Shown here one piece after another: positions 2,251 through 35,583 of a stretch of DNA of 35,583 bases. Under the pieces are notes generated by a model, which worked only from the letters and a program-made list of their open reading frames with translations, was not told the DNA's origin and did no database searches. Source of the stretch: an uncultured Persicitalea sp. (lineage in GTDB: Bacteria; Bacteroidota; Bacteroidia; Cytophagales; Spirosomataceae); contig CATMVR010000002.1 in the NCBI GenBank assembly GCA_950075905.1, positions 1-35,583 on the forward strand, in the 5' to 3' direction. The position numbers and the translations under genes were made by a program. How positions within the stretch are numbered: position 1 is the first letter of the stretch; each line of letters begins with the position of its first letter.

Positions 2251-2296
2251 TTTTGGTATGAAAAGTTTTATTGGTACTATTTCAAAAAAGGAATAT

Positions 2297-8068: not shown

Positions 8069-9341
8069 TCTTGTCTTGAAGCCCTCGAACAACTACCGCT
8101 GGTGGATTGCCGCCCTCATTGGACTCGCCACGGCGATCAATTACCTTGATCGGCAGAACCTGCCCATTGCCATTGGCGAAATCAGGAAAACTATTGAAAT
8201 CAGCGATTTCGACTACGGACTCATCAACAGTCTGTTCCTCTTTGCCTACGGTACCATGTATGCGATTGGTGGGCGAATCATCGATATTCTTGGCTCCAAA
8301 ATGGGCTATGCCGTGATGATTGTGTGGTGGTCGGTAGCCAATATCCTGCATGGGCTCATTTCCAGTGTAACCGGACTAGGCATAGCCCGGTTTCTGCTCG
8401 GACTCGATGAGGGCGGAGGTTTTCCGGGTTCAGCCAAGGTGGTCTCGGAATGGTTTCCCCGCAAGGAACGCTCCATGGCTTTTGGCATTTTCAATACCGG
8501 TTCAAGCCTGGGGGCGGTACTTGCCCCACCGTTACTTGCCGTGATTATTTCGCTGGCCAACTGGCGCTGGACGTTCATCTTTTCGGGCTTGCTGGGCCTG
8601 GGGTGGGTGCTCCTGTGGTTCAATATGTACAGCCTACCATCCAAAAGCCGATTTTCGTCGGTGGCCGAAAAAGCCTACATCGCCAGCGGACAAGCGTCAG
8701 AAGTGGGCGCAAGGCCCAAAACTCCCTGGCTCGGCCTTTTCAGGAATCGAGACGTGTGGACGGTCATTCTGGTCAAGTTCTTCCCGGATTCGGCCTGGTA
8801 CTTCTACATTTTTTGGCTTCCCAAATACCTCAATGACGTGCGTGGACTGGACATAAAGGGCATTGGGCTTTACGCCTGGATACCCTATGCTTTTGCGGGA
8901 GTGGGCAGCTTGCTGGGGGGCTGGCTGAGTAGCTTCCTGCTGCGGAAGCACGTTTCTCTGGCCGTTGCCCGTAAAATCCCGCTGGGGCTGGCGGCGGCCC
9001 TTTTGCCCACTTCGCTGCTTATCACGAGTGTATCGCTTCCCCTGGCCATCGTGTTTTTCAGTATGGCCATGCTGGGGCACCAGCTGTACTCGACCATCGC
9101 CCAGACCCTGGTGACCGATTTGTTCCCATCCCCCGTGGTGGGCTCGGTCACCGGATTGATGGGATGCATGGTGACCTACGGGGCCATGTTGTTCAGTGTA
9201 TTGATCGGGTATGTCATCGGTGAGTTTGGGTATGGACCGGCTTTCCTGATTTCGGGCATGCTGCATCCACTGGGCTTTATCCTGGCACTCGTGTTGCTCA
9301 AAAAGGACAGGTTTGTTCGAAATGATCTAGCTATAATTTAA
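8052..9341 (+). CDS. MFS transporter, ACS family (hexuronate / sugar-acid:H+ symporter-like)
   Basis: The likely start is ATG 8052 (MLQKDDLVLKPSNNYRWWIAALIG), overlapping the SDR end by 17 bp; the track's 8010 start would lie deep in the SDR gene. The product has about 429 residues with many hydrophobic segments, consistent with 12 membrane helices. NYLDRQNLPIA in the first helix and LLGLDEGGGFPGSAKVVSEWF are typical of ACS-family carriers such as ExuT. The predicted role is uptake of a hexuronate, aldonate or similar anion across the inner membrane, feeding the SDR, epimerase and isomerase encoded beside it. Confidence 0.85.
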   Translation: MLQKDDLVLKPSNNYRWWIAALIGLATAINYLDRQNLPIAIGEIRKTIEISDFDYGLINSLFLFAYGTMYAIGGRIIDILGSKMGYAVMIVWWSVANILHGLISSVTGLGIARFLLGLDEGGGFPGSAKVVSEWFPRKERSMAFGIFNTGSSLGAVLAPPLLAVIISLANWRWTFIFSGLLGLGWVLLWFNMYSLPSKSRFSSVAEKAYIASGQASEVGARPKTPWLGLFRNRDVWTVILVKFFPDSAWYFYIFWLPKYLNDVRGLDIKGIGLYAWIPYAFAGVGSLLGGWLSSFLLRKHVSLAVARKIPLGLAAALLPTSLLITSVSLPLAIVFFSMAMLGHQLYSTIAQTLVTDLFPSPVVGSVTGLMGCMVTYGAMLFSVLIGYVIGEFGYGPAFLISGMLHPLGFILALVLLKKDRFVRNDLAII

Positions 9342-10259: not shown

Positions 10260-10769
10260 ATGGAAAAAGCAAAAATATACCTCGGCTGTGACCACGGGGG
10301 CTACGTTCTGAAAACCCAGCTTGTTGACTTTCTCACCGGGCAGGGCTATGCGGTGGAGGATTTCGGTTGCCATTCCGAAGACATTGTGCGCTACCCCCAC
10401 TACGCCGCGCGGGTGGCGAAGGCGGTGCGGAGCCAACCCGGCGCGCGCGGGATCCTGCTGTGCTCCACGGGCATCGGCATGAGCATCATCGCTAACAAGT
10501 ACCGGGGGATCAGGGCCGCCCTGTGCTCCACGAGCTACCAGGCCCGCATGACCGCCTCCCACAACAACTCCAATGTCCTGTGCCTGGGCGGTCGCTGTAT
10601 CGGGATTTTTGAGGCACAGGATATGCTGCATGCCTGGCTTACCACCCCCTACGAAGGCGGACGCCATGACATTTCCCTGGGGCTGATTGAGTCGGCGGAG
10701 AACGTAAATTTTTCGGGAAAGGATTGGGAGGGGGAGGAAAACGACAAAAATAGTCCTGGCCTGGTTTGA
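10260..10769 (+). CDS. rpiB: RpiB/LacAB-family sugar-phosphate isomerase
   Basis: The product has 169 residues, a little longer than typical RpiB (about 150), with an extra polar tail. Active-site signatures are present: CDHGG (Asp11-His12), the enediol-base Cys68 in LLCSTGIGMS and His101 in SHNNSNVLCLGGR. RpiB interconverts ribose 5-phosphate and ribulose 5-phosphate; relatives act on allose, galactose or other sugar phosphates. Given its place beside an epimerase and a sugar-acid dehydrogenase, it may be a pathway-specific isomerase and not the housekeeping enzyme. It is the last gene of the operon, 34 bp after the epimerase. Confidence 0.83.
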   Translation: MEKAKIYLGCDHGGYVLKTQLVDFLTGQGYAVEDFGCHSEDIVRYPHYAARVAKAVRSQPGARGILLCSTGIGMSIIANKYRGIRAALCSTSYQARMTASHNNSNVLCLGGRCIGIFEAQDMLHAWLTTPYEGGRHDISLGLIESAENVNFSGKDWEGEENDKNSPGLV

Positions 10770-10835: not shown

Positions 10836-10902
10836 TGGCTAAAATAGTTTAATTAATGGCTAATTCACTTCAATTTGCTCATACTATCGAAAGGTACCTT
10901 TG
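10836..10902 (+). promoter_or_regulatory. susC operon promoter with AraC-type direct repeats
   Basis: TGGCTAA is at 10836 and 10857, 21 bp apart. TTTG at 10874-10877 and TACCTTTG at 10895-10902, with a 17-bp spacer, form a good Bacteroidota -33/-7 promoter. The second repeat starts 38 bp before the -7 element, exactly as at 7168-7234. This promoter also shows that the track's ATG at 10900 cannot be the susC start. Confidence 0.75.
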
Positions 10903-11013
10903 CGCATACCGTCTGGAATAAAGACAAAAAGATTCACTTTAAGTACAAGTAAAACTATTCTTTTCAACAGGTTACAAATAACTATTCCTAAACCCAATAA
11001 AAGCTGTATTGAT

Positions 11014-14000
11014 ATGAAAAAATACCTGGTAACGAAAAACAGCGTGCTGCTGTGGTCACTCCTGCTGGCATCGCTCCTGGTGCTGCAGGTACCTCCGGCT
11101 TGGGCCGAAAAACGGCCCGTCTCCCTAAATTTGTCTCCGTGGGCAGTGCAGGTTTCAGGTCGGGTGATCGACGAAGACGGCAATGGGATTCCGGGAGTAA
11201 GCGTAACGGAGCGCGGCACCGCCAACGGCACCATCACGAACCCCAGTGGAGAATTCAGCCTCTCGGTGACCAGCGAGGCAAGCGTGGTCGTGTTCAGTTT
11301 TCTTGGGTATGTTTCCCAGGAAAGGGTGGTGGGCAGCAGCTCCCGCCTCGAAATCAGCCTGCAGCCGGATGTCAAGGCACTCTCAGAGGTGGTGGTGGTG
11401 GGGTATGGTACCCAGCGCAAGAGTGATGTGACGGGGGCTATATCCAAAATATCGGCCGAAAAGGTAAAAGCCGTGCCGGTAGTCTCCACCGAGCAGGTGC
11501 TGCAGGGGCAGGCGGCCGGTGTCGACGTGGTGGCGGCGGGCAATGCCCCCGGCTCGGGCATGACCGTGCGGGTGCGCGGCCAGCGGTCGATTCAGGCAGG
11601 CAACGATCCCCTCTACGTGGTGGACGGCATTCCGTTCGATGGCGGCTTGAACCAGATCAGCCCCAATGACATTCAGTCCATCGAGGTGTTGAAAGACGCC
11701 TCATCCGCCGCGATCTATGGGTCAAGGGCAGCCAACGGCGTGGTTTTGATCACCACCAAGCGGGGCAGCGCCGGCAGGACCACCGTCAGCATTGATTCCT
11801 ACTACGGGGTGCAGAATATCCTGAATCAGGTGAATGTGCTGGACGCCGAAGATTTTGTGAATTTTCGAAAAACGGCCCAGAACCGCACCGATCTGAATAC
11901 GATTCTGGCGCCAGAGGAAATCGCCAACTATCAGAATGGCCAGTCAGTGAACTGGCAGGACCTGCTGCTGGCAAAGAATGCCCCGCAGCAGAATCATCAG
12001 GTCAGTGTTTCGGGGGGAAGTGAAAAAACCAGGTTCCTTGTTTCGTTCAACTACCTGCAGCAGAAGGGGATCATTGCACCCTCCGACTTCACGAGGGGCT
12101 CGCTTCGCATCAATCTTGACCATGAGATCAACCGGCGGATCAAGGTGGGGGTGTCCTCACTGCTGACCCGGAACCTTACCAACCGGGTGGATGTGGGTAA
12201 TGCCCTCATCGCTGCCTCACAGATAAGCCCCCTGGGCGACGTCCGCGACGAGCAGGGCAACCTGCTGCTGTATCCCACCCAGAGCGAGCAACTGGTGGTG
12301 AATCCCCTGACCGATATTGCCAACAACATCAACAAGACCTGGGAAAACCGCATCTTCGCTAGTCTGTACGCCGAGTTTATGCTGGGCAAGGGGTTTACCT
12401 ATCGCTTCAATTTTGGCCCCGATTTGTCGTTCGACAACAACGGCGTGTACATCGGTTCGGAGACAAACGCCAAGAAGGGGGCTCTGGACGAAGGGCAGAG
12501 CAACCGGTCTGACTCGTACTCTTACACACTCGAGAACATCCTGCGCTACACCAAAACCCTGGGTGAGTCGCATAAGCTGGATGTGACGCTCGTGCACAGT
12601 ATCCAGAACCGGAAGTACACGTATACCCGTGTCAGTGCGCAGGGTTTTCCCACCAACCAGGTGGAGTGGAACAAGCTGTCTAGTGGTACCATCAAGGGCT
12701 TCGATACGGGCTTTGAGGACTGGAAGCTGCTTTCCTACATGGCCCGGGCCAACTACGGCTTCCGCGACAAGTACCTCTTCACGCTTGCCGCGCGTCTGGA
12801 TGGCTCCTCCCGCTTCGGCGATCGGAACAAGTTCGGATTTTTTCCCTCGGCGGCCTTTGCCTGGCGCGTCATCGAGGAAAACTGGATGCCCTCCGCCTCC
12901 TGGCTTTCGGACCTGAAGCTGCGGGTCAGCTACGGCACTGTGGGCAACACCGCCATCTCGCCCTACCAAACCATCGGCTCGCTCACCCGCTCGTCCTACC
13001 TGTTCGGGTCTAACCCGGCGCAGGGTTTCGGGCCAGGTACCCTGCCAAGCCCCGACCTGAAATGGGAAACAACCCGGCAGTTTAACGTGGGACTGGACTT
13101 CGGGTTGATCAATAACCGGATCTCGGGCGCTCTGGAGTACTACCGCACCAGCACCGACGACCTGCTCCTGAGCCAGTCGCTGCCCCCGACCTCGGGGTAC
13201 GCCACCATCATCTCCAACATCGGCGCCACCCGCAACCAGGGCCTGGAGCTGACGCTCCAAACGGTGAACCTGGATGTGCCCTCGGGCTTTAAGTGGACAA
13301 GTGACCTCAACTTCTCGGCCAACCGCAACGAGATCGTCCGGCTGCTGGGCGATAACAAGAACGACATCGGCAACCGCTGGTTTATCGGGCAGCCCATTCA
13401 GGTGTACTACGACAACCGCTACCTGGGCATCTGGCAGCAGGAGCAGGCTGATGAAGCCAAAGGCTATGGCCGCACGGTGGGGCAAATCCGGGTGGAAGAC
13501 CTCAACGAGGACGGCCGCATCAACGCCGACGATCGCTCGATCCTGGGGTCGCCGTTCCCGAAGTGGACGGGCGGCATGACCAACACATTCAGCTACAAGG
13601 GGTGGAATTTTTCGTTCTTTGTCTACACCCGCCAGAACTTCCTGATCAACAGTGCCATTTATGCCGGCAACCTGGGCGAGCTCAACTCCCGTTTCAATAT
13701 CCCGCAGTTTATCGACTACTGGACACCCGAAAATACCGGTGCCCGCTACCCCAAGCCCCTGCCGATCGGCACCAACAACCCCGACCTCAACACCCTGGGC
13801 TACGTAGATGGCTCGTATGTGCGGGTCAGGACGGTTACGCTTTCCCATGATTTTGGCAAAGTACTGGTCAACAAACTGGGCATGCAGTCGCTGCGGGTGT
13901 ACGCCACGCTCAACAACCCCCTGAATTTCACAAATTTCAAGGGGTGGGATACCGAGGCGGGCTCCTCTGTCAACTCCTACCCGTCCACCAAACTGGCTCT

Positions 14001-14025
14001 GCTGGGTGTGAACATTACATTCTAA
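11014..14025 (+). CDS. susC: SusC/RagA-family TonB-linked outer-membrane transporter
   Basis: I chose ATG 11014 (MKKYLVTKNSVLLWSLLLASL…PPAWA, a signal peptide); the track start at 10900 lies on the -7 element. The product has about 1003 residues. A carboxypeptidase-regulatory-like domain follows the signal (VSGRVIDEDGNGIPGVSV … FLGYVSQE). The SusC hallmark SEVVVVGYGTQRKSDVTGAI comes next, then the plug (VRGQRSIQAGNDPLYVVDG) and a long beta-barrel ending in an aromatic residue (GVNITF). It forms the outer-membrane pore of a SusCD importer for an oligosaccharide or glycoconjugate, driven by TonB. It is followed 21 bp later by susD. Confidence 0.95.
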   Translation: MKKYLVTKNSVLLWSLLLASLLVLQVPPAWAEKRPVSLNLSPWAVQVSGRVIDEDGNGIPGVSVTERGTANGTITNPSGEFSLSVTSEASVVVFSFLGYVSQERVVGSSSRLEISLQPDVKALSEVVVVGYGTQRKSDVTGAISKISAEKVKAVPVVSTEQVLQGQAAGVDVVAAGNAPGSGMTVRVRGQRSIQAGNDPLYVVDGIPFDGGLNQISPNDIQSIEVLKDASSAAIYGSRAANGVVLITTKRGSAGRTTVSIDSYYGVQNILNQVNVLDAEDFVNFRKTAQNRTDLNTILAPEEIANYQNGQSVNWQDLLLAKNAPQQNHQVSVSGGSEKTRFLVSFNYLQQKGIIAPSDFTRGSLRINLDHEINRRIKVGVSSLLTRNLTNRVDVGNALIAASQISPLGDVRDEQGNLLLYPTQSEQLVVNPLTDIANNINKTWENRIFASLYAEFMLGKGFTYRFNFGPDLSFDNNGVYIGSETNAKKGALDEGQSNRSDSYSYTLENILRYTKTLGESHKLDVTLVHSIQNRKYTYTRVSAQGFPTNQVEWNKLSSGTIKGFDTGFEDWKLLSYMARANYGFRDKYLFTLAARLDGSSRFGDRNKFGFFPSAAFAWRVIEENWMPSASWLSDLKLRVSYGTVGNTAISPYQTIGSLTRSSYLFGSNPAQGFGPGTLPSPDLKWETTRQFNVGLDFGLINNRISGALEYYRTSTDDLLLSQSLPPTSGYATIISNIGATRNQGLELTLQTVNLDVPSGFKWTSDLNFSANRNEIVRLLGDNKNDIGNRWFIGQPIQVYYDNRYLGIWQQEQADEAKGYGRTVGQIRVEDLNEDGRINADDRSILGSPFPKWTGGMTNTFSYKGWNFSFFVYTRQNFLINSAIYAGNLGELNSRFNIPQFIDYWTPENTGARYPKPLPIGTNNPDLNTLGYVDGSYVRVRTVTLSHDFGKVLVNKLGMQSLRVYATLNNPLNFTNFKGWDTEAGSSVNSYPSTKLALLGVNITF

Positions 14026-23444: not shown

Positions 23445-23717
23445 CGGTCCATCCCCACCTGTGTAGGGAAAACCAAATCCCGCCTTAGAGAAATGAATCA
23501 ACATGCGGTCCATCCCCACCTGTGTAGGGAAAACGATAGCTCCACCAGCCGGGACTCCACCTTAGCCGGTCCATCCCCACCTGTGTAGGGAAAACGTAAA
23601 CCTGAGCGTGACCGTGTGCATCATCAGCGGTCCATCCCCACCTGTGTAGGGAAAACGTCCCCTACCTGCTGGTGGCTACCCCTATACTCGGTCCATCCCC
23701 ACCTGTGTAGGGAAAAC
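23445..23717 (-). repeat. Array 1, distal block: repeat type A (5 intact copies)
   Basis: Copies start at 23445, 23506, 23567, 23628 and 23689. In minus orientation they begin GTTTTCCC and have loop ACAG. This is identical to the repeats of array 2. Confidence 0.95.
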
Positions 23718-23749
23718 TGGATGTAGATCACGTAGATATTGAAGAATTT

Positions 23750-24875
23750 CGGTCCATCCCCACGCATGTAGGGAATACTCGGCCAGTGCCTCTTTGTGCG
23801 CCTTAATTACCGGTCCATCCCCACGCATGTAGGGAATACGAACCGTGGCCGCGCACGTGCTGACCTTTTCGCGGTCCATCCCCACGCATGTAGGGAATAC
23901 ATTGATGTACTCAATGACTTTTAGCGGTGAGCCGGTCCATCCCCACGCATGTAGGGAATACCGATACGGATTGTACCCAATATGCTCATTACCCGGTCCA
24001 TCCCCACGCATGTAGGGAATACCAGCGCATTATATCCGGGTTGGTATCGTAGTTCGGTCCATCCCCACGCATGTAGGGAATACCGGCCTGCCTGATATAC
24101 CTCCTGTCTCCGCTTCGGTCCATCCCCACGCATGTAGGGAATACTCAATAAACCGCTCGTCGGCGGTGTTCCAGTTCGGTCCATCCCCACGCATGTAGGG
24201 AATACTCACCCTGGTGTAGGGCAGCACCTCCTCATACGGTCCATCCCCACGCATGTAGGGAATACGCGTGACGCTTTCGGGGGCCGCGACCGGAACTCGG
24301 TCCATCCCCACGCATGTAGGGAATACCCCTCCCCTCCCTTCCGAATATCATCCTCCATCGGTCCATCCCCACGCATGTAGGGAATACCTCCTGACGGCCG
24401 ACGCATCGAAGGCCTTATTCGGTCCATCCCCACGCATGTAGGGAATACCGCATTCGCCCCGGCACAGACTCCTGTCGGGGCGGTCCATCCCCACGCATGT
24501 AGGGAATACGCTTTCAGCGACTCAACGTAGCGGTCAATGGCCGGTCCATCCCCACGCATGTAGGGAATACCATCGGCTTCGGTGGACCTCAGGTTCGGGT
24601 GTCGGTCCATCCCCACGCATGTAGGGAATACTTGGTAGCGTTACCCGTTACCATCGTCTTGTACGGTCCATCCCCACGCATGTAGGGAATACGGTATCTT
24701 TTGGAATGCCATTAAGAACATAAAAGGTCCATCCCCACGCATGTAGGGAATACTGTCAGGGGGCGGTTTGGGGTGGCGGCGTGTTCGGTCCATCCCCACG
24801 CATGTAGGGAATACGGTGGTGCCTACGGAGGAAGTGACACCGGAACCGGTCCATCCCCACGCATGTAGGGAATAC
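23750..24875 (-). repeat. Array 1, leader-proximal block: repeat type B (19 copies)
   Basis: Copies start at 23750, 23811, 23872, 23933, 23994, 24055, 24116, 24177, 24237, 24298, 24359, 24420, 24481, 24542, 24603, 24664, 24725, 24786 and 24847. In minus orientation they begin GTATTCCC and have loop ATGC. The copy at 24725 differs at its last base (T in place of G). Confidence 0.95.
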
Positions 24876-24947
24876 ACTAAAAATTTGCATGTGAACGCGG
24901 TTTTCGTACGTCAAAGAGCGTTTATGTGTTTTTAAGAAATTTTTTGT
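24876..24947 (-). promoter_or_regulatory. Leader of CRISPR array 1
   Basis: This 72-bp AT-rich segment lies between the cas6e stop and the first repeat. CTCTTTG (minus strand, 24918-24912) lies 36 nt before the repeat; the same heptamer lies 34 nt before array 2. Because the gap is so short, array 1 may also be read through from the cas operon. Confidence 0.65.
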
Positions 24948-25622
24948 TCAGAATCTGGCGGGGGCCAACGAGAGCAATCCAAAACCAAAAGCCTTGGCAG
25001 GTCCAATGCCACTCTGCAGGGCGGCTTTGAAAAGTATGGGATCAGTCACGCGTAGCATTCCATCAAAGCGGACGCCGTAAAGCGGGATTGCTTGTCGCGA
25101 TTCGACCGTGCTCCCCTTGGCTGCTTCGTACCAGAAATCATCACTACCGGCCCATAGTATCTCGAAACCATGTTGCTGTCCTTTCCGGCTCAGCCATGCC
25201 TGGGCAGCGGTCGGAGCATCGGCTTCATCGTCCTGAGTCAGGTAATCGGCGAGGGCCACACGCCGGCCCTGTTTCCTGCCCTCACGCTTTTCCTTGCGTG
25301 TCGGATTGGCCACAAGACGGAACTGGAATGTCTGGCCTGACACAAAATCAGGGTCGGCTGCTGTATACTTGACGGAAGTAGTGTAATGTTCAGGCAAGCG
25401 ACTCCAGTCCGGCTCAGTGTGTGACTGCACCAAAATGGTCGGCTGTGCATCGCGGTAAGACAGTGGCTCCAGCCGAAACAGCACACCATGCTCGACCCGA
25501 TAGTCCCTGCCGGGCACCGTCTCGAAAGCATGGGCGAGTGTACGGTGCAGTTCATAGGGTGCAGCCGCATCGCGCCGTGCCTCGAACGATCGGGGGTTAA
25601 GAGTGATTTTAGACAAAAACAT
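24948..25622 (-). CDS. cas6e: Cas6e (CasE/Cse3) crRNA-processing endoribonuclease
   Basis: I use ATG 25622 (MFLSKITLNP, the usual family start) because the track's 25628 codon is TTG. The product has 224 residues. Tyr23 and His26 in PYELHRTL match the Y23/H26 catalytic pair known for Thermus Cas6e, and GIGPAKAFGFGLL is the C-terminal glycine-rich loop. It cleaves the repeat hairpin at its 3' base and stays in Cascade. It starts 2 bp after the cas5e stop. It must process two repeat types, which share the stem but not the loop. Confidence 0.95.
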   Translation of the reverse strand: MFLSKITLNPRSFEARRDAAAPYELHRTLAHAFETVPGRDYRVEHGVLFRLEPLSYRDAQPTILVQSHTEPDWSRLPEHYTTSVKYTAADPDFVSGQTFQFRLVANPTRKEKREGRKQGRRVALADYLTQDDEADAPTAAQAWLSRKGQQHGFEILWAGSDDFWYEAAKGSTVESRQAIPLYGVRFDGMLRVTDPILFKAALQSGIGPAKAFGFGLLSLAPARF

Positions 25623-25624
25623 GT

Positions 25625-26440
25625 TCAATCGGGGACTAAGGTTGGACGGATATAGGTGACCACTTCGCGGGGGGCAAACCGGCGGGGGGCAAACGAAAGC
25701 GGCACATCGCTACGCTGTGCTCGGCTTGCCGGGATGTATTCGCCTGGTGCGTCGGGAGACTGGGCTTTGCCAGTCCCGGCATCCAGCACCAGCCGCACCG
25801 TCTGTGCCGACAGCTCTGCTGCCCCGCTCCAAATCTGCTCCCGATCACCAATGGATTCGGGCATCAACGCTGGGTCAAGGGCCGTTAGCAGCGCTGTTGT
25901 CAGGGGGGCACGCATGACGGAAGGCCCTGTGCCCTCACCAAGCTCGAACCGTACGGGCCAGGTAGGCACGAAGGATTTGCGACCAAGAAACAACGGCCAA
26001 TAGGGTTTGGCTAAGGCCGCGTCCAGGGCAGACAGCAGGTCTCCATCCTCGCTCTCGAACCCCACCAGGAAGTGGGCATCGCTGAGGTAGTACCGCTCCG
26101 ATAAGACGGTGGTCTGCAAGTCGCCGGGGTTGGCGGGCTTGCCGGGCTTCAGCTTGGCACTGGCCCGCAGCACGTTTTGCGCCGTGTGGTAGTCGCGGCG
26201 CAGGACGCCCTCCCGAATGACCCGCACCCCGAAGCACATAGCGGCCAGGTCGGCAAGAGTGCGTTCCTGCCCAGCGATAACGTGCGTGGCTTCGGCCCGG
26301 TCCCAGCCCAGAGCGGCGCAAAGCAAGCCAATCACACCGCTTTTCGAGGGTTCGGCCAGCGTTTCGCGGATGCCGAACCGACTGCTCACGCCCCAGGACT
26401 GCATCGGCCCGGCCAGTCGTAAAATCAGGGTGTGGCTCAT
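25625..26440 (-). CDS. cas5e: Cas5e (CasD) Cascade subunit
   Basis: The start is set at ATG 26440 (MSHTLILRLAGPMQSWG, the canonical Cas5e opening); the track's longer ORF runs into cas7e. The product has 271 residues and contains SRFGIRETLAEPSKSGVIGLL and RDYHTAQNVL typical of the family. In Cascade it caps the 5' handle of the crRNA and contacts Cse1. It overlaps the cas7e stop by 3 bases (ATGA). Confidence 0.95.
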   Translation of the reverse strand: MSHTLILRLAGPMQSWGVSSRFGIRETLAEPSKSGVIGLLCAALGWDRAEATHVIAGQERTLADLAAMCFGVRVIREGVLRRDYHTAQNVLRASAKLKPGKPANPGDLQTTVLSERYYLSDAHFLVGFESEDGDLLSALDAALAKPYWPLFLGRKSFVPTWPVRFELGEGTGPSVMRAPLTTALLTALDPALMPESIGDREQIWSGAAELSAQTVRLVLDAGTGKAQSPDAPGEYIPASRAQRSDVPLSFAPRRFAPREVVTYIRPTLVPD

Positions 26441-27654
26441 GCGGGTTCGGGCTTGGCGGTGAGGAAGGTTTTCAAGGTTCCCAGCAAGTCGGGAACGCTG
26501 TCGAGCGTCTCGACGCCCGCCGCTTGCAACGATTGCGCCGCTTTCCCCCCGGCATCGAGCATCACGCACGCAGCCTGGCCGTTCAGCCCGTACATCTTTT
26601 GCAGCCTACCGTAGTGCGCACTCAGCGATTCGACGGCCCGGCTGGTCAGGCTTTCGTCCTGTCCGGGTTTTACGGGATTCTCAAAGGCATTGACCAGCGA
26701 AACCGGCTGCCCCGATTCCCGCATCACCACCATCACCAGCGCGGGCAGCGAGTGGGCCGCAAAGGTGTTCTGCTTGCCCGAAGGCCGCGCCTGCACGAAC
26801 GCCTCGGCGAAGGCAAGCACTCCTTCCCTGGCGGCTTTGGCATCGCCGCCCAGGTTGCGGGTCAGTTGGCTCGTATCGACACAGGCGAAGCGGTAGAAGC
26901 ACGACGAGGAGAAGCCGATGGTGCCGATCATGCCCGCCCCGGCGTTTTCGGCAGGCTGCAGGTCATCCACCGCCGTGAAGTAGTCGAACTCCATGTTCAT
27001 GCGGTTGACCGAAATGGCGTGGCTCACCTGACAGGCCGCATCCACGTTTTCGGCGGGGTTGTCGGCCAGCATCCGGCCAAACAGGGCCACATCCACTGCC
27101 CGCACGTGCTTGGGGTAGGTTTTCTTGTACTGATCGGCCAGGGCCGCGAAGGGCTTTGCGGCTTCGGAAATAGCCTTTTCGTGATCGGCCTTTTCCTTCT
27201 TCGAGACACCCTTGGCGGGCGGATTGCTCCGCAACTCGGCCAACTGCCCGGCGGCGGCTATCGTTCCGGGCTCGGCACCGTGCAGCAGGTCGGCGGCTCG
27301 CTGTAATTCCTCCGGCCCGACGTAGAGCAGGTACCTCGTCTTGCCGTCGTCGTCAATTTTGTACAAAGCCTCGTAGAACTCCGCCGCCAGGGCCTTGGCC
27401 TGAGTCTCCGAATGACCCAGCCCGACGAGCAGTCCGGCAACCGCCTCGGGCGCTCGCTTGGTGCGGATGCCCAGGCGGTCGGTCATCTGTTCGCGGAACA
27501 CGTCGGACTGCCTGACGGAACGTTTCAGGCATTGGGAAGAGATGCGCTGCCGACGGTAGCCGCCGAAGTCGCAGTCTTTGGGCGCACCGCTGTCGTCACG
27601 GTTGAGGTTGGAGGGGGGGAAGTTCTGCAGGATGTGAAATTCGATGGTTTTCAT
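26437..27654 (-). CDS. cas7e: Cas7e (CasC/Cse4) Cascade backbone subunit
   Basis: The product has 405 residues and begins MKTIEFHILQNFPPSNLNRD, with RRQRISSQCLKRSVR, VDVALFGRMLAD and ENVDAACQVSHAISVN, all landmarks of Cas7e. It polymerises along the crRNA to form the Cascade backbone. It is slightly longer than the E. coli protein (363), partly through an Ala/Lys-rich segment (PPAKGVSKKEKADHEKAI). It begins 29 bp after cse2. Confidence 0.96.
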   Translation of the reverse strand: MKTIEFHILQNFPPSNLNRDDSGAPKDCDFGGYRRQRISSQCLKRSVRQSDVFREQMTDRLGIRTKRAPEAVAGLLVGLGHSETQAKALAAEFYEALYKIDDDGKTRYLLYVGPEELQRAADLLHGAEPGTIAAAGQLAELRSNPPAKGVSKKEKADHEKAISEAAKPFAALADQYKKTYPKHVRAVDVALFGRMLADNPAENVDAACQVSHAISVNRMNMEFDYFTAVDDLQPAENAGAGMIGTIGFSSSCFYRFACVDTSQLTRNLGGDAKAAREGVLAFAEAFVQARPSGKQNTFAAHSLPALVMVVMRESGQPVSLVNAFENPVKPGQDESLTSRAVESLSAHYGRLQKMYGLNGQAACVMLDAGGKAAQSLQAAGVETLDSVPDLLGTLKTFLTAKPEPA

Positions 27655-27683
27655 AGGGATTGGGTTTTTAAATAAAAAAAAGG

Positions 27684-28283
27684 TCAGTTGGTGGTTTCAA
27701 AAAGATCTTCGTCCTCTTGCTCGGCCCGGGCGGTCTTCCAATAGTCACGAGCCCACTGGCGTTTGGTGTGGTCGCCCTCCCAATGCAGCAGGTCCGTCAA
27801 AATCCGACCGTAGTCCACCGGGATGCGGGCTTCGGCGGCAGCTATTCGTTGAATGAAGCCCCGCAGCGGCACGGCGATGTCCTCGCGGTCGCTATCAAGC
27901 AAGGCGACGAATCGCTTATCCAGGCTATCTTGCCCCGCCCCAAGCTGGGTGCGCAGCCGTCGCAGCGACTCGCCGAACGACCGGGGTTGGTAGCTTGTGC
28001 TGTCGTCATCCTCACTAAATCCGGGTACTTTGTACCCGCCATCTGGGGTGGTGAACCGCTGGGCGTGGATGGCGTAGAGCGTCCCCACCAGGCGGTAGGC
28101 GTCGAAGGGCCAGCCGCTGGTTTCGGGCAGAAGCCCGCCCAGTATCCAGATGGAACGGGTGTCGCGCAGCGGGTCGGCGGCGGCGCGGCGGAGTTCGGCC
28201 AGTTTGGCGCGGCCCTCCGCATCGCGCTGCTTTTGCAGAAATCGCACCAGGTTGTTGATCGAGGCTTTGTCGTAAGGATTCAT
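27684..28283 (-). CDS. cse2: Cse2 (CasB) Cascade small subunit
   Basis: The start is at ATG 28283 (MNPYDKASINNLVRFLQKQR), overlapping the cse1 stop as ATGA. The product has 199 residues, is helical and charged, and contains GGLLPETSGWPFDAYRLVGTLYAIH and SFGESLRRLRTQL; it ends with the acidic tail EQEDEDLFETTN. Cse2 dimers stabilise the R-loop and non-target strand in Cascade. Confidence 0.93.
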   Translation of the reverse strand: MNPYDKASINNLVRFLQKQRDAEGRAKLAELRRAAADPLRDTRSIWILGGLLPETSGWPFDAYRLVGTLYAIHAQRFTTPDGGYKVPGFSEDDDSTSYQPRSFGESLRRLRTQLGAGQDSLDKRFVALLDSDREDIAVPLRGFIQRIAAAEARIPVDYGRILTDLLHWEGDHTKRQWARDYWKTARAEQEDEDLFETTN

Positions 28284-29836
28284 ACGGGTTCGGTTTTTTT
28301 GGATTTGAGGTAAAGAGTTCCGGTGTTCAGCACCGTTTCGGCTTCGGCCAGGGCCTGCCAGGCGGAATCGCTGGGTTTGTAGTGATCCAGGACGCCATGC
28401 AGCGCGGCCTTGGCAACTTTTTTGATCATGGTCTGCCACTCTTTGCGCACGGCCCCCAGGTCGTCGGTGGGTACGGTGGCGATTCGGGCCAGAATGCGGT
28501 CGAACTGCTGCCCCAGCACGGGCCAGTAGCGGGCGTCGGTGTCGAGGGCTTGCACGAAGGCGTCGCGCTCGCCCCGCTCCACATCGCTCAGGCGAATGCC
28601 CCAGGGCTTGTTGAGCCGGGCACGGGTGGCGAAGGCGCGGGTGGCTTCGCGCAGCCGGAAGTCGCGGATTTTCCTTGCATCTTCAATTATGTCCCTTAAA
28701 GTGAGCCAGCGGCCTTCCTCGGTTATGATCTGGGGGTAAACCGTCACCCGTTCCTGCCGCCATAGTTCGACCTTGGCCTTGTCGTTGACCATGCCGAACA
28801 CATCCGCCGCAAAAGCCACCCGGCGGTCAAGGTCGAGTTCTTCAACATTGTTCGCCAGCCATTCAAAGGTCTTCGGCGCGTGACCGCCTTCGCCCTTTTT
28901 CTCAATGTTCATCATGTAAGCCGCACTGCCCTGCCAGAGCGCACGGGCCGTACTGAACCGCAAGGGGTAAAGCCCTTCGTTACCCGCCAGGTAGGCCAAG
29001 TGTGGGTCGTCGAAAAGTAGGTTCTCGACCTTGCTGCCCTGGTTGTAGCGGACGCCAGTCACCCCTTGCTCCTCGTTCAAGACCACCTGCAGGCGGCGGC
29101 TTTGAAACGTGAACAGTTCACGGATACCGCCAACGTCGCGTTTTTTGGGTAATGGCGGTTCATCCGCTTCCCAGGCAGGATGATCGCCCTCGGTGTTTCC
29201 CCAAACCCCGGAATCGGGGGCAAGGTTGAGCAGCAAGGCCCGAAACAACGAAGGTCTTTCGTCCGCCACGCCCCGCAGCCAGAAGTACGCCCCGCCCACC
29301 AGCGGTCCGTGGCATAGATTGAACGGCTTGGCCACCCCGCCGCCCAAAGCCGCCGCCTGAGTGCAAACCAGCGCACGGGCCGCTTGGGCCAGCGTCAGGG
29401 GCTGGTTTTCGGCATCAAGGTCATGACTGAACAGCGCGGCGTTATTTCCACTGGCCGCCGCGTGAAACAGGCGCGTTATGGGCGAAGGGTCTTTCGCTTC
29501 CGTGTCGGGGTGGCCGTAAAAAGGCCGCGTCGGCGACAGCAGGTCGAAGCGGTCGGTGTGTTGGGCAAAGTACGCTTCGCATCGCGCGGCGTCGAACGCC
29601 CCCTCCTGCCAGCGGTCAAACCAGTCCGATTCGTCGGTTAGTTCCGGGAATACAGAAGCGGTCAAAGCCGCCAGCAGCCGATTGAGGGCGATGGTTTCGA
29701 GCGGATTGTCGGTCGCCAGTTCCTCGATTTCGTGCGCCCTGGTCAGGGCCTCGTGTAGGCCCACGTCCGTCGGCGGGCCGCCCCCGCGCCACCGCATAGG
29801 TAGCCAGGGTTCTTGTAGTAGGTTGAAGGAATTCAT
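28280..29836 (-). CDS. cse1: Cse1 (Cas8e/CasA) Cascade large subunit
   Basis: The product has 518 residues and begins MNSFNLLQEPWLPMRW, the standard Cse1 opening. PLVGGAYFWLRG, GVWGNTEGDHPAW and the C-terminal helical bundle are also typical. This subunit recognises the PAM and recruits Cas3. The gene starts 2 bp after the cas3 stop, inside the single interference operon. Confidence 0.95.
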   Translation of the reverse strand: MNSFNLLQEPWLPMRWRGGGPPTDVGLHEALTRAHEIEELATDNPLETIALNRLLAALTASVFPELTDESDWFDRWQEGAFDAARCEAYFAQHTDRFDLLSPTRPFYGHPDTEAKDPSPITRLFHAAASGNNAALFSHDLDAENQPLTLAQAARALVCTQAAALGGGVAKPFNLCHGPLVGGAYFWLRGVADERPSLFRALLLNLAPDSGVWGNTEGDHPAWEADEPPLPKKRDVGGIRELFTFQSRRLQVVLNEEQGVTGVRYNQGSKVENLLFDDPHLAYLAGNEGLYPLRFSTARALWQGSAAYMMNIEKKGEGGHAPKTFEWLANNVEELDLDRRVAFAADVFGMVNDKAKVELWRQERVTVYPQIITEEGRWLTLRDIIEDARKIRDFRLREATRAFATRARLNKPWGIRLSDVERGERDAFVQALDTDARYWPVLGQQFDRILARIATVPTDDLGAVRKEWQTMIKKVAKAALHGVLDHYKPSDSAWQALAEAETVLNTGTLYLKSKKTEPV

Positions 29837-29838
29837 GA

Positions 29839-32646
29839 TTATTGTTTGGTGTAAATTAATCCTAATCTGTTATCCAGCGTGAGTTGCACATTCCCTACCG
29901 TGGCATTCCCATCAACCAGCTCCACCAGCTGAAAGCGTTTCAGCACCCGATGTTCCTCCTGCATGGCGAGCCATTCAGGGTTCTCTTCTTTCCATAGCGT
30001 GGAAACAATACCGGGATGGCTGATCCGCACGGCGGCACCGAAAAGGGTACGCAGCGTCTCGGGCTGTAGCCTCCGGTTTTTGGTCCGGCATAAAACCGTT
30101 TTATCGCCTGGCTCCACCGCCCAGCCCCCATCAGTTTCATATAGAAGCAGTACTTCGGCATTGATGCCGTCCGAACTGCGGGTCAGGGCTTTGAGGTGTT
30201 CGGGCAAATCGCCTTTCCCTTTTTCCCCGTCCTCTTCGGCCAATTCAGGTTTTTCAAACACAAACAGCTTCCGCAGTTTTCCCGGCTCCGGCACCAGCCG
30301 CTTTGCGGCATCGGCCATTTTGCTTCGGTCGGCTCTCAGCCACTCGGCCACTTTCTCAGGATATAGGGCTTGAAACTCTTCATCCAGTCCTGCAGGAACT
30401 GCAGCCAAGTCGCCATACACCGCCTCGATCAGAGCCCGGTAGCCCGGCCCGGCCCCATCGCCCAGCGGCAAGGTCCAGCCGCCCGCTTGCCGCAGCACGG
30501 CCCAGGTTTTCCAGAGCAGAGCCGTTTCGTATATTTTGCCGCCGCCCGAAATCCCGTCCACCTCGGGCAGTTTGCCCTCCTCGCTCTCCGCGCAGGCGAT
30601 GTACATCACGGGTTGGGAAAAACCAGCGGGCCGCTCGCGCTGGTGGCGGTGCAGCCGCCCGGCGCGTTGCAGCAGCAAATCGACCGGAGCCAGGTCGGTG
30701 ATGAGGGCGTCCACGTCCAGGTCGAGGCTTTGCTCGATGACCTGTGTTCCCACCAGCAGACCGGACTGCGCGGGGCGTTTGGGGCCGAAGCGGGCGCGGG
30801 CGTCTTTCTCACGCTCCTGCCGCCAGGCTTGGGGCATTCGGGCGTGGAGCAGCATCCGGTCGGCCTTGGGTAGTATTTCATCGGTGTCGAGTTTCTCAAA
30901 AACCTCCTGCGCTCGCTTGACGGTGTTGCAGACGATCATTACCGTGGCTCCCGCCGCCAGCAGTCGCCGGGCGGTGGCCACAACGGAGTCGATTCCGGCA
31001 TCACACCAGCGGAAGGCTAGTCTTTGGCCCCGTCCCGGTGCGGGGGCAAAGGGGTGGGCAGTAGTGGTGCCGTCAGCGGCATGCCACACCACCGGGTAAG
31101 GTGCCGGACGAGTACCGTCAGGCACTTCGGGGCTGCCCCAGGCAGCGAGCATCCGCTGGCGCGCTTCGGTGGGCAGCGTGGCCGACAGCACCACTACGTT
31201 GACATTCAGCGCGCGCAGCCAACGCAGCAATTGCCCAAAGACGGTATTCATGTAGGCATCGTAGGCGTGTACCTCGTCAAAAATGACCGTCTTGCCATTC
31301 AGCGCGAACAGCCGTAGGAAAAAATGCTTGGCGTAAAGGACGCCGAGGAAAAGCTGATCGACCGTCCCAACGCCGTACGGAACCAGCAGGGCCCGCTTCT
31401 TGGGCATGAACCAGCCCAGCACCCGGTCCTTGCCGGATTCTTCCCTGCCCTTCTTAGCATCATTGTCGTCTATTTCGGCGGTAGCTTCGGCGATGGTGAG
31501 CAGCGCTACGGCATCGTCGTGGAGCAAGTCGTTGCCATGTACCAGGCGTAGGGCGGCGGTATCGCCGACATGGGCTGCCACCAGACCATTCTCTACGTCA
31601 CCCGCCACAAATGTTTTCAGGCGCGGGTAGAGGCCGTCTGATGTAGATTGAGAGGGCATGGCTACGTACACCCCCCCGCCATTTCGGGCGGTGACATAGA
31701 ACCCGGCTTCGGTTTTGCCTTCGCCCGTCGGGGCTTCGGCGATAATCAGGTTGGGCTGGTCGGGATGCAGGGGCAGAGCGGCCACGATTTCCTGTAATGG
31801 GCGCGGAGGGTTGCCAAAGTGTTTTTCAAAATCCAAAGCCCGCAGACTGGCCCGCTGATTCAACCCGGCCTGACGATAGGCTGTGTACGCGCCCTCCCGG
31901 CTACTAACCAGGTAAGCCGCGAGGTCGTCCTCGGCCCGAATGTGCAGGTCGTAGCAGCTTTGCATCGATCCGAGCCAGTCGGCCAGCGTGGCCCAGCCCG
32001 CGAAGGCCAGCAGCCAGTCGGGCCAGGAATCTTTAAATGCATTGAGTGTGGGGAAGGCGTTGCTTGATGGAAGCGTAGCCCCCCATGCCATGAAAACCGC
32101 TTCGGTGAGGTCGTGCTGGGCTTGCCTCCAGGTTTCGTTACCCAGCACGGCTTCGGGGCGCGGGTCTAGGGCGACGCCCTCCCATGTTTCTTTCTGGCAA
32201 AGCTTGCCGTGATGAATGCCCACGAAAGCGGCCAGGGCATCCAGCAAGGTTTTGCCTGTAAACCCCTTGGCGCCCAGCCAACGCTGCGCGATGGCGATAG
32301 ACGCGTGACCGTGGTGCAGTCGGTTATGGTTTTCGTGAAAAAACAGCCCGGCCGCTTCCTGCCGCGCCTTAGCGGGTTCGTTCATTTCCTGAAAGCCCGG
32401 AATCCCCTTCCCCAGATCATGCAATCCAATCCAAATGCTGAGAAACCGACCGGCTTCGGCTTCGCTCATACCGAGAGCAGCGGCCATTTTCTGTTTCAGT
32501 GAATCTGGAAGGAACTCGTCCCACAGCAGTTGCGCGGCGCTGCCCACGTCGATGAGGTGTGCCCAGAGCGGGTGTGTCCAGTCGTCGGCTAAGCCTTCGA
32601 CTTTTTCGCGGTTGGTTTTGGCCCAAAAGAGCCGCCAGTTTTCCAT
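29839..32646 (-). CDS. cas3: Cas3 nuclease-helicase with N-terminal HD domain
   Basis: The product has 935 residues. The HD nuclease motif is at GLHDLGK (His76-Asp77) with further metal histidines at HPLWAH, NRLHHGHASIA and IHHGK. The helicase has Walker A APTGEGKT (about 305-312), Walker B DEVH (457-460), SATLP (about 488) and motif VI QRAGRLHRH. It degrades target DNA recruited by Cascade. It is first in the interference operon. A candidate promoter and WYL-type operator lie 25-70 bp upstream. Confidence 0.97.
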   Translation of the reverse strand: MENWRLFWAKTNREKVEGLADDWTHPLWAHLIDVGSAAQLLWDEFLPDSLKQKMAAALGMSEAEAGRFLSIWIGLHDLGKGIPGFQEMNEPAKARQEAAGLFFHENHNRLHHGHASIAIAQRWLGAKGFTGKTLLDALAAFVGIHHGKLCQKETWEGVALDPRPEAVLGNETWRQAQHDLTEAVFMAWGATLPSSNAFPTLNAFKDSWPDWLLAFAGWATLADWLGSMQSCYDLHIRAEDDLAAYLVSSREGAYTAYRQAGLNQRASLRALDFEKHFGNPPRPLQEIVAALPLHPDQPNLIIAEAPTGEGKTEAGFYVTARNGGGVYVAMPSQSTSDGLYPRLKTFVAGDVENGLVAAHVGDTAALRLVHGNDLLHDDAVALLTIAEATAEIDDNDAKKGREESGKDRVLGWFMPKKRALLVPYGVGTVDQLFLGVLYAKHFFLRLFALNGKTVIFDEVHAYDAYMNTVFGQLLRWLRALNVNVVVLSATLPTEARQRMLAAWGSPEVPDGTRPAPYPVVWHAADGTTTAHPFAPAPGRGQRLAFRWCDAGIDSVVATARRLLAAGATVMIVCNTVKRAQEVFEKLDTDEILPKADRMLLHARMPQAWRQEREKDARARFGPKRPAQSGLLVGTQVIEQSLDLDVDALITDLAPVDLLLQRAGRLHRHQRERPAGFSQPVMYIACAESEEGKLPEVDGISGGGKIYETALLWKTWAVLRQAGGWTLPLGDGAGPGYRALIEAVYGDLAAVPAGLDEEFQALYPEKVAEWLRADRSKMADAAKRLVPEPGKLRKLFVFEKPELAEEDGEKGKGDLPEHLKALTRSSDGINAEVLLLYETDGGWAVEPGDKTVLCRTKNRRLQPETLRTLFGAAVRISHPGIVSTLWKEENPEWLAMQEEHRVLKRFQLVELVDGNATVGNVQLTLDNRLGLIYTKQ

Positions 32647-32670: not shown

Positions 32671-32716
32671 TAAAGGTATAACAGCCTACCTCCTACGCCG
32701 GACATTTCATGTCCGG
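32671..32716 (-). promoter_or_regulatory. cas3 operon promoter and palindromic operator
   Basis: CCGGACAT-TTC-ATGTCCGG (32698-32716) is a perfect 8+8 palindrome with a 3-bp spacer. On the minus strand, TACCTTTA (32678-32671) fits the -7 consensus with one mismatch. The T of its TA is 20 bp from the operator edge, so the operator sits over the -33 region. The same palindrome occurs before cas1. Confidence 0.75.
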
Positions 32717-32738
32717 AATGAGTATGACTACGTAACGT

Positions 32739-33737
32739 TCATTTGCAATAACGTCGGACCAGTTCCTCCGCCTCCTGCCCCAGCCGTTCGCGTAAAGCGC
32801 CGGGTTCGAGTACCGTGATGCCCACGCCCCAGCCCTGGCAGAAGGAACGCATTTCCTCGAATCCCTCCAGCTCGTAGGATACCACCAGCCGGCCGTCAGG
32901 CCGTTCCTCCTCCACAATCTGCGTGGGGTGGTACTTGCGCTCATGGAAATGGGTGGCCTTGTCAGGCTCCACCAGTAGCCTCAGCTCGAAGCACTGGTCG
33001 GAGGTGATCGAGCCCAGGGAGGCCCGGAAATACGTTTCCGGGTTGAAGCTCTCGTCTACGGTGAAAAAGGCACCCTCCACGGCATCGTCGCAGGGAGCCA
33101 CGCGACTGATCCGGGTAAGGGCAAAAGTCAGCAGCTTTTCACGCTTATGGCAGTAGGCAACCAGCATCCAGGCGCGGTTTCGCTTGGCGAAGATGTAGGG
33201 GTCGATTTTCCTGTCATTTGAGATCCGGCCCTCTCTTGCGGTGAAGTAGTCAATCCTGATCGAGCGATGCTCGTCCATAGCCGTTTCCAACCGGCTGAAT
33301 ATATCCATTTGGATGCGATCCGGATCATTGTCGTCAAAGTGCCACTCCTGGGTGGGTTCCTCTATGTCAAAAAGGTAGGTGACGGGACGGGCCCGCTCGA
33401 GTAGCTTGACAAAGGCACGGCTTAGAGCTGCGGCGTGCGGTGTGCCAACCAATACTGACCGGCTAGCCTTGGCGGCAATAGCAAGGGCGCGCAGTTCAGC
33501 GGAATCGAAGCGTAAGTCGGGAATGGTAACCTGCTGGCTTTCCGGAGCCAGAGAAAACACCTTGCGCCTCTCCTCCTGCCGCTGCAGGATCGGCAATCCC
33601 TGTTCCTTCAACTGACTGATGAAACGGCGGGCCTGCCGTTCCCCGACTTTCGTCAGCTTCTGGATGTCATCCAGTGTCAGTGCACGACCTGTGTCCAGGA
33701 CCTGACGTAACAACTCTTCGGGTCTTATTTTTTTCAT
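32739..33737 (-). CDS. WYL-domain transcriptional regulator of the cas locus
   Basis: The start is at ATG 33737 (MKKIRPEELLRQVLDTG); the longer track ORF crosses the operator and cas1 leader region. The product has 332 residues: an N-terminal winged helix (TLDDIQKLTKVGERQARRFI), a WYL domain (DPYIFAKRNRAWMLVAYCHK, with WML at the signature) and a C-terminal WCX-like segment ending QEAEELVRRYCK. WYL proteins respond to nucleic-acid or nucleotide ligands and often sit in defence loci as repressors or activators. It separates the interference operon from cas1-cas2, and identical palindromes lie just beyond each end of the gene. It is the obvious candidate to bind them. Confidence 0.9.
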   Translation of the reverse strand: MKKIRPEELLRQVLDTGRALTLDDIQKLTKVGERQARRFISQLKEQGLPILQRQEERRKVFSLAPESQQVTIPDLRFDSAELRALAIAAKASRSVLVGTPHAAALSRAFVKLLERARPVTYLFDIEEPTQEWHFDDNDPDRIQMDIFSRLETAMDEHRSIRIDYFTAREGRISNDRKIDPYIFAKRNRAWMLVAYCHKREKLLTFALTRISRVAPCDDAVEGAFFTVDESFNPETYFRASLGSITSDQCFELRLLVEPDKATHFHERKYHPTQIVEEERPDGRLVVSYELEGFEEMRSFCQGWGVGITVLEPGALRERLGQEAEELVRRYCK

Positions 33738-33793
33738 TGAGGTAGGGGTGACAGTTAGTTGTGGATTGCAAGGTTGAAGGAGCATTGCCTCAT

Positions 33794-33840
33794 GCCGGAC
33801 ATCGAATGTCCGGCTTGCCGCACATGTGGCTTTAAGTTGC
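33794..33840 (+). promoter_or_regulatory. cas1-cas2 promoter region and palindromic operator
   Basis: GCCGGACAT-CGA-ATGTCCGGC (33794-33814) is a perfect 9+9 palindrome whose core is identical to the one before cas3. A weaker -7 candidate, TAAGTTGC (33833-33840), starts 20 bp from the operator edge, the same distance as at cas3. The site is also 57 bp upstream of the divergent WYL start, so it could serve autoregulation. Confidence 0.7.
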
Positions 33841-33863: not shown

Positions 33864-34799
33864 ATGAAACACAAACATGCATTGCGGGATTTGCCCAAAG
33901 TTCGTGATTCTCTTTCATTCCTTTACGTGGAGTACGGGCACGTAGAGCAATCCAGGCTGGGGGTTGAGTTCGTCAACAGGCTGGGGCAGGTTCCTATTCC
34001 GGCGGCAAGCTTGTCCTCATTGTTGCTAGGGCCGGGCACCACGATCACCCATGGAGCGATCAGAACTCTGGCCGAAGCCGGATGCTCTTTGGTTTGGGTC
34101 GGGGAGGGTGGGGTCAGATGCTATGCCCAGGGTACCGGGGAGACAAACAAGGCCTATCGTCTCATGCGGCAGGCCGAACTTTCGGCAACGCCCGAGCTTC
34201 GACTGCAGGTGGTGGAGCGGATGTACCGGGCCAGGTTTCCGGAGCCACTGCCCCAGGGTCTCAAACTCGAACAAATTCGGGGCAGGGAGGGGATACGAGT
34301 GCGTGAGGCCTATGCCCAGGCCGCACGCAAATTCGGTGTGAGTTGGAACGGCAGGAATTACGACCGCAACAACTGGAACGATACGGATCCGGTAAACCGG
34401 GCTCTGTCATCAGCGAACGCCTGCCTGCACGGGCTGGTACATGCTGCGCTACTTTCGTCGGGTTATTCTCCGGCACTCGGCTTCGTGCACCAGGGCAAGC
34501 AATTGTCCTTTGTGTATGACATAGCCGATCTCTACAAAATGCAGCTGACAGTTCCTGTCGCTTTTTCGGTAGTGGCGGAAGGCCCGGATAAACTGGAAAC
34601 GAAGGTCCGCAAGCGGTGCCGTGATGCCTTCAACAACCTGAAACTGTTGCAGCGAATCGTCACCGACGTGGATCGCCTACTTTCCTTGGATAAGGAACCG
34701 GAGAATCCCGATGGTTTTGACCCTGACGAAGATCCAGCCCTGCCAACCCCCTGGTGGAGCAAATTGCCAGACAACCCAGCCAAATCCACCGAGCCATGA
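33864..34799 (+). CDS. cas1: Cas1 (type I-E) integrase
   Basis: The start is at ATG 33864 (MKHKHALRDLPKVRDSLSFL); the longer track ORF includes the operator. The product has 311 residues. The catalytic residues are Glu142 (RGREGIRVREAY), His209 (GFVHQG) and Asp219/Asp222 (VYDIADLYK), one residue from the E. coli positions 141/208/218/221. It forms the spacer-integration complex with Cas2. It is transcribed divergently from the interference genes, unlike the usual single I-E operon. Confidence 0.97.
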   Translation: MKHKHALRDLPKVRDSLSFLYVEYGHVEQSRLGVEFVNRLGQVPIPAASLSSLLLGPGTTITHGAIRTLAEAGCSLVWVGEGGVRCYAQGTGETNKAYRLMRQAELSATPELRLQVVERMYRARFPEPLPQGLKLEQIRGREGIRVREAYAQAARKFGVSWNGRNYDRNNWNDTDPVNRALSSANACLHGLVHAALLSSGYSPALGFVHQGKQLSFVYDIADLYKMQLTVPVAFSVVAEGPDKLETKVRKRCRDAFNNLKLLQRIVTDVDRLLSLDKEPENPDGFDPDEDPALPTPWWSKLPDNPAKSTEP

Positions 34800-35080
34800 C
34801 CATACTGATCCTGGAAAGGGTCTCCCCCACGCTGCGGGGCGACCTCGGCCGCTGGCTGGTTGAAATACAAGCGGGGGTGTTCGTCGGTCGCGTAAACGAG
34901 CTTGTGCGCGAAGCACTGTGGGAACGGGCCACAGGCCGCGCCGATGATGGCACAGTATTGATGGTTTGGCGCACAAACAGCGAGCAAGGCTTTGATCTAC
35001 GGGCCTGGCAACCTAAAAGCTATATTCCCATCAATCTGGAAGGCATCTGGCTGACCCGCCGACCGGCTTCTAACACTTAG
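34796..35080 (+). CDS. cas2: Cas2e (type I-E) adaptation protein
   Basis: The start is at ATG 34796 (MTILILERVSPTLRGDLGRW), overlapping the cas1 stop as ATGA. The product has 94 residues. VSPTLRGDLGRWLVEIQAGVFVGRV and the strand FDLRAWQPKSY are typical of the Cas2e branch. It is the structural core of the Cas1-Cas2 complex. No cas4 is present, as expected for I-E. Confidence 0.97.
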   Translation: MTILILERVSPTLRGDLGRWLVEIQAGVFVGRVNELVREALWERATGRADDGTVLMVWRTNSEQGFDLRAWQPKSYIPINLEGIWLTRRPASNT

Positions 35081-35126
35081 CGTTTCTCTTTGTCCAAAAA
35101 AGGCTGTTTCTTGTCATTTGATCAGG
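35081..35126 (+). promoter_or_regulatory. Leader of CRISPR array 2
   Basis: Only 46 bp separate the cas2 stop from the first repeat. CTCTTTG (35086-35092) lies 34 nt before the repeat, matching array 1. No good E. coli-type IHF site is seen. Confidence 0.6.
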
Positions 35127-35583
35127 GTTTTCCCTACACAGGTGGGGATGGACCGACCGCTTCGAGTGAGCTATCCTCGTACTGATCGTTTTCCCTACAC
35201 AGGTGGGGATGGACCGAAGACCGCACTAGGCGACTGGAATCTACCCGAGTTTTCCCTACACAGGTGGGGATGGACCGTAAGAAGGAACTGGAAACCGCCG
35301 CCGTGCAACGTTTTCCCTACACAGGTGGGGATGGACCGGCTGAATATCGGGCTCGATGTCCAGCTCCATCGTTTTCCCTACACAGGTGGGGATGGACCGG
35401 ATGGTCTGCCTATTGTGTGGCCCCGTCCGACGTTTTCCCTACACAGGTGGGGATGGACCGGTGGCTGCAGGCCGGTCAAAACGTGGCCGTAGGTTTTCCC
35501 TACACAGGTGGGGATGGACCGGCCCGCCGCAAGCCCGTGCACCACGAGTCGAAGTTTTCCCTACACAGGTGGGGATGGACCGG
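35127..35583 (+). CRISPR. Type I-E CRISPR array 2 (8 repeats visible, continues past window)
   Basis: The 29-bp type A repeats (GTTTTCCC…, loop ACAG) start at 35127, 35188, 35249, 35310, 35371, 35432, 35493 and 35554, with seven 32-nt spacers. All eight are identical. Array orientation follows cas1-cas2, with the leader at the low-coordinate end. No spacer is obviously shared with array 1 by eye. Confidence 0.98.

Follow-up and report, generated by a model that had tools for sequence, protein, structure and literature searches.

WYL-domain proteins were predicted in 2014 to regulate CRISPR-Cas systems (Makarova, PMC4012209), and the regulator class is already known. DriD of Caulobacter crescentus (PDB 8tp8, 9pfq) recognises the consensus ATACGAC-N7-GTCGTAT; its sites lie over the -35 element, at a constant distance from -10, in promoters with poor -35 elements, and it activates the operon divergent from its own gene (PMC12340889). 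SiwR requires Arg 38 and 42 for DNA binding and uses a 19-bp imperfect palindrome (PMC10693628). BrxR and CapW are WYL repressors linked to defence systems (PMC9122601, PMC9122588), and Sll7009 of Synechocystis, a WYL protein tied to a CRISPR system of type I-D, is reported as a negative regulator of it (PMC4012209).

The locus described here lies in a window of 35,583 nt, the whole stretch of DNA that was analysed. It can be assigned to type I-E by the presence of cas3, cas8e, cse2, cas7e, cas5e, cas6e, cas1e and cas2e together with a repeat of the I-E type. The gene for a 332-aa WYL regulator (32739..33737, minus strand; ATG 33735-33737) separates two gene sets that run away from it. On the minus strand is the interference operon, with cas3 (29839..32646) as its first gene and cas8e, cse2, cas7e, cas5e and cas6e (24948..29836) as the remainder. 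On the plus strand are cas1e (33864..34799; TIGR03638, 371.8 bits) and cas2e (34796..35080), which overlaps the end of cas1 by 4 bp; the cas2e start was picked by homology, the longest ORF being 34754-35080. CRISPR arrays occupy both outer ends, one downstream of cas6e (23445..24875, minus strand) and one downstream of cas2e (35127..35583, plus strand), the latter reaching the end of the contig.

The first-pass annotation of this DNA had reported a perfect palindrome, CCGGACAT-N3-ATGTCCGG, just outside each end of the WYL gene, and both copies were confirmed there, neither being assigned to a strand. The first predicted operator (32698..32716), CCGGACAT-TTC-ATGTCCGG, or CCGGACATTTCATGTCCGG in full, lies directly past the WYL stop codon, 51 bp upstream of the ATG of cas3. 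The second (33795..33813), CCGGACAT-CGA-ATGTCCGG, or CCGGACATCGAATGTCCGG, lies between the divergent WYL and cas1 genes, at 50 bp from the ATG of cas1 and 57 bp from that of WYL. Both are perfect over 19 bases, and the arms of the second lengthen to 9 bp (33794-33814). In the whole draft genome (5.38 Mb in 819 contigs, 82% complete) the sequence occurs exactly twice at up to one mismatch, both times at the CRISPR locus, so that the many copies unrelated to cas genes that would have spoken against the proposal were not seen within one mismatch of the site in this draft. At two mismatches, two unrelated places in the genome match, versus one for a reversed-pattern control. When the non-array part of the window was dinucleotide-shuffled, the shuffles held a mean of 5.5 single inverted repeats with 8-nt arms, and a recurring one, with the same arm and spacing, was found in 0/300. 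The exact 19-mer is absent from the 98 relatives searched: what they have in common with the window is the core, whereas the exact outer bases and the spacer are peculiar to this genome.

Each palindrome is placed in a fixed relation to a candidate promoter. The predicted -7 elements of cas3 (32671..32678, minus strand; TACCTTTA) and of cas1 (33833..33840, plus strand; TAAGTTGC) both lie 20 bp from the operator edge, counted to the T of TA, exactly as first proposed, and at the cas1 promoter this register is kept in relatives. Across a 13-site family alignment the A at +23 and the TT at +26/27 are invariant while the spacer is unconserved, and this invariance supports the predicted -7 elements. 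If the T of TA is set as -12, the palindrome centre falls at about -41, the classical spot of an activator that touches RNA polymerase beside the sigma subunit (class II activation), and the promoter-proximal half-site sits where a -33 element would be. None of the 13 family promoters has a TTG at a usable -33 distance; this argues weakly for activation, because a -33 motif was also not found in another member of the Bacteroidetes, Flavobacterium johnsoniae (PMC7366714). A scan for sigma-70-type promoters returned nothing, as expected for this phylum. The register of the second site toward the WYL gene is roughly kept in the window and in Fibrisoma limi and not kept in the other four loci, and autoregulation of the WYL gene from this site was set aside for that reason.

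Conservation was assessed across the family (Spirosomataceae; 223 genomes). Seven of these genomes have a WYL orthologue, among them F. limi, Fibrella rubiginis and Arsenicibacter rosenii. Exactly six have a Cas1e above the curated cut-off, and all six also carry the WYL gene. Five other family genomes have a type I-E locus in which the WYL gene takes the same position, and gene order is identical in all six loci. GGAC-N7/8-GTCC, followed after exactly 21 nt by [T/C]AnnTT, is found at 12/12 promoters (two in each of the six loci), one of the 12 intergenic regions deviating by a single change, to GTCT. Within each of these loci the two operators have the same spacer length (7/7 or 8/8). In dinucleotide-shuffled intergenic regions of the relatives an in-register site arose in 9-38 of 20,000 shuffles each (0.05-0.2%), figures that are not simply multipliable since the ten regions share descent; the DNA surrounding the sites has diverged. 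The site is kept near all seven family orthologues of the WYL gene. Using the site, 21 nt and TAnnTT as one pattern, the seven WYL genomes yielded five zero-mismatch matches, all at cas promoters of the CRISPR locus, and one-mismatch matches elsewhere were at the level of a reversed control. As the zero-mismatch matches fall only at cas promoters, the predicted regulon is the CRISPR locus. On this comparative evidence the palindrome is a conserved regulatory site.

The protein encoded between the two sites has Pfam matches to WYL (57.9 bits, 1.1e-15) and WCX (47.4 bits, 2.6e-12), both above cut-off. Pfam gave no HTH match in the window protein itself; HTH_11 matches a homologue of it. The predicted structure is of moderate confidence overall (pLDDT 72.9, pTM 0.38) and has an N-terminal winged HTH (helices 6-15, 22-29 and 33-45 plus two wing strands, pLDDT about 75-92), a helical linker, WYL and WCX. 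The predicted recognition helix, residues 33-45 (33603..33641, minus strand), is a helix of this model and contains Arg34 and Arg38, the latter invariant in 11 homologues; the spacing resembles that of the two HTH arginines, four apart, in SiwR. Over its full length the protein finds its best PDB profile match in DriD (positions 8-317, E 8e-21), which also ranks first in Foldseek (E 2.7e-15 over about 340 columns), the TM being low because the domains are oriented differently. Among proteins of known structure, the activators DriD and PafBC match best over the full length. The repressors CapW and BrxR rank behind them: their sequence matches cover the WYL domain only, and their Foldseek E is about 1e-9 to 1e-7 versus 1e-15.

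DriD therefore provides the closest comparison, sharing the full-length domain order as well as the best fold match. The core GAC-N7-GTC is common to its consensus and to GGAC-N7-GTCC. DriD sites keep a constant distance from -10, and the sites here lie 21 nt from the predicted -7 in 13/13 family sites. The proposed control of a gene divergent from the regulator's own is a further likeness. However, identity is about 20%, and the outer bases are ATAC/GTAT in DriD versus CC/GG here. DriD is centred on -35, whereas the present sites would be centred roughly 6-8 bp further upstream if -7 is taken to correspond to -10, and the contacts must then differ in some respect. DriD controls DNA-damage genes rather than CRISPR genes, and single-stranded DNA binding, a mark of DriD-like regulators, may by analogy extend to the present protein. 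SiwR and PafBC of mycobacteria are likewise WYL activators with a fixed promoter-proximal site, but their sites fall in the -26 region, between -35 and -10, not upstream, and their targets are stress and DNA-damage genes. BrxR and CapW resemble the present case as WYL and WCX regulators beside a defence operon with inverted-repeat operators, BrxR having two inside its island (PMC9122601); they differ in operator sequence and in the weaker match of sequence and fold. The BrxR operator is downstream of -10 and represses, whereas the sites here are 20-21 nt upstream of -7. Sll7009 is alike as a WYL protein tied to a type I CRISPR locus, and differs as a reported repressor, of type I-D (PMC4012209).

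The position near -41, the kinship with DriD and PafBC, the DriD core and geometry and the pair Arg34/Arg38 together favour activation by the WYL protein at both promoters. It is thus probable, as judged from sequence, that the palindromes are WYL operators from which cas3-cascade and cas1-cas2 are jointly activated at about -41. In such a scheme a WYL dimer would bind GGAC-N7-GTCC through the N-terminal winged HTH. The downstream half-site, fixed 21 nt from -7, would abut or replace the -33 region, and the bound protein would, most likely in the manner of DriD, recruit RNA polymerase. The genes cas3-cas8e-cse2-cas7-cas5-cas6 and cas1-cas2 would then be turned on simultaneously; by analogy, the inducing signal could be single-stranded DNA from infection or DNA damage. 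Attack genes and genes for memory formation are probably under the joint control of a single regulator encoded next to them. Direct binding of the WYL protein to both sites is inferred from these features.

The main rival to activation is repression. Here the WYL protein would bind the same two palindromes and block RNA polymerase at -33 until released by a ligand, either a nucleotide or single-stranded DNA from infection, as for BrxR, CapW and Sll7009. Several characterised defence-linked WYL proteins do repress (PMC9122601, PMC9122588; Sll7009 as cited in PMC4012209), a site overlapping -33 could equally occlude that region, and all of the conservation evidence fits repression equally well. 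Yet BrxR and CapW match the protein much less well than DriD and PafBC do. The sites are strictly fixed upstream of -7, which repression does not require and which the BrxR operator, downstream of -10, does not share, and the -33 TTG is missing throughout the family promoters. With the centre of the site near -41, activation appears more likely, and repression is considered rather unlikely.

The association of the site with the WYL gene extends beyond type I-E. In the seventh WYL genome of the family, A. rosenii, the WYL orthologue (58% identical) fronts type I-B cas6, cas7, cas5b, cas3 and cas4, and the WYL-cas6 promoter contains CGGAC-GCCGAAAT-GTCCG, with TATCTTCA 21 nt past GTCC in the same register. 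Since the I-B locus keeps the site, the site tracks the regulator and not the cas type. The A. rosenii locus is without I-E genes; the system under regulation has here been swapped in nature. More distant WYL homologues of the Bacteroidota with the site are 31-42% identical to the window protein. The Roseithermus I-E operon has one site before WYL-cas1-cas2-cas3, and an I-PGING locus has two, the first ahead of WYL and the second in the WYL-cas6 interval (region positions 8901 and 10098). At two more loci (positions 10547 and 10919) the WYL-adjacent site faces a divergent gene of unknown function (316 and 367 aa, respectively); in one genome this gene adjoins DUF6079/methyltransferase genes, and in the other its neighbours are EcoRV-type restriction genes. 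Surveyed over 32 WYL homologue genes in the phylum, the density of in-register sites is 0.73/kb in the flanks of WYL versus 0.027/kb in the rest of the same loci. The density in 20 other I-E loci of Bacteroidota is 0.006/kb, i.e. essentially none, and 19 regions around such cas1e genes have neither WYL nor an in-register site. Outside the family the strict in-register site is found at only 7/25 WYL homologue genes; by sequence the operator is divergent or absent at many of these, and the link fades with distance.

These distributions also bear on whether some other, unlinked DNA-binding protein uses the palindromes, the WYL gene owing its place between them solely to operon history. Cas promoters are targets of many global regulators, and binding by the WYL protein is itself deduced from indirect features. 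Nevertheless the genome has no other close copies of the site, the sites move with WYL to I-B, I-PGING and divergent non-cas genes, and they are essentially missing from I-E loci that lack WYL, which makes an unlinked protein improbable. That the palindromes act as RNA hairpins (terminator, processing or attenuation) rather than as DNA operators is less credible still, and a terminator or hairpin role was rejected: 8-9 bp stems with 3-nt loops do fold, and the first palindrome is close behind the WYL stop codon, but neither stem is followed by a T-run, the second palindrome sits in a divergent intergenic region, folding exceeds expectation only slightly (z about -2), the cas RNAs, with start sites predicted downstream of the palindromes, would not contain them, and the stems of relatives are imperfect with spacers of 7 or 8 nt, yet the -7 register is invariant, which fits protein-DNA contacts.

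The proposal of a single regulator, most simply the WYL protein, jointly controlling interference and adaptation is therefore supported, as a prediction, by conservation of the site, its exclusivity to the CRISPR locus, its co-occurrence with WYL, its move to type I-B and its near-absence where WYL is lacking. The occurrence of one cassette before CRISPR loci of different subtype points to a regulator and operator that are exchangeable as a unit. A broader and more tentative possibility is a portable, signal-responsive, DriD-like WYL activator module that senses an infection product (e.g. single-stranded DNA) and co-induces interference and adaptation, the cassette having been placed before I-E, I-B and I-PGING systems across Bacteroidota. 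If true, such a module would make CRISPR in these bacteria inducible.

The first-pass annotation knew of no earlier description of the site. In the literature searched, which left most subscription journals outside its scope, no description was found of the operator sequence, of its pairing over interference and adaptation, of the fixed register or of travel between subtypes. A full-text search for the literal site returned unrelated papers only, and the same literature gave no described set of operators for type I-E systems in this phylum. A short sequence with a fixed promoter geometry offers a concrete and cheap test of joint switching of interference and adaptation, and of activation versus repression.

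Additional information about the locus can be garnered from its arrays and surroundings. The left array is mixed: repeats in 23445-23717, the part most distant from cas6, are of the variant CGGTCCATCCCCACCTGTGT that characterises the right-hand array, whereas those in 23750-24875 are of the variant CGGTCCATCCCCACGCATGT. This points to an exchange between the arrays or to their fusion. Between cas6 and the left array (24876-24948 in the window) relatives at five loci share a conserved array leader, TTCTTTGAC ... AAATTTCCAGT, placed right before the first repeat, and in several relatives a strong hairpin after cas6 precedes it. The palindrome was not seen in the array leaders, and Rfam gave no match in the window. 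Control of both arrays by read-through from the palindromes is not claimed, the cas6 side in the relatives having hairpins and then a conserved leader without the palindrome. From cas2 to the first repeat of the right array there are 46 nt (35081-35126), and about 50 in four relatives; the right-hand array may be fed by cas1-cas2 transcription. An ordinary polysaccharide-use locus lies beside the CRISPR locus in the window; it comprises a SusC-type TonB receptor and two GH106 alpha-L-rhamnosidases that adjoin each other (106-5242 and 10900-14025).
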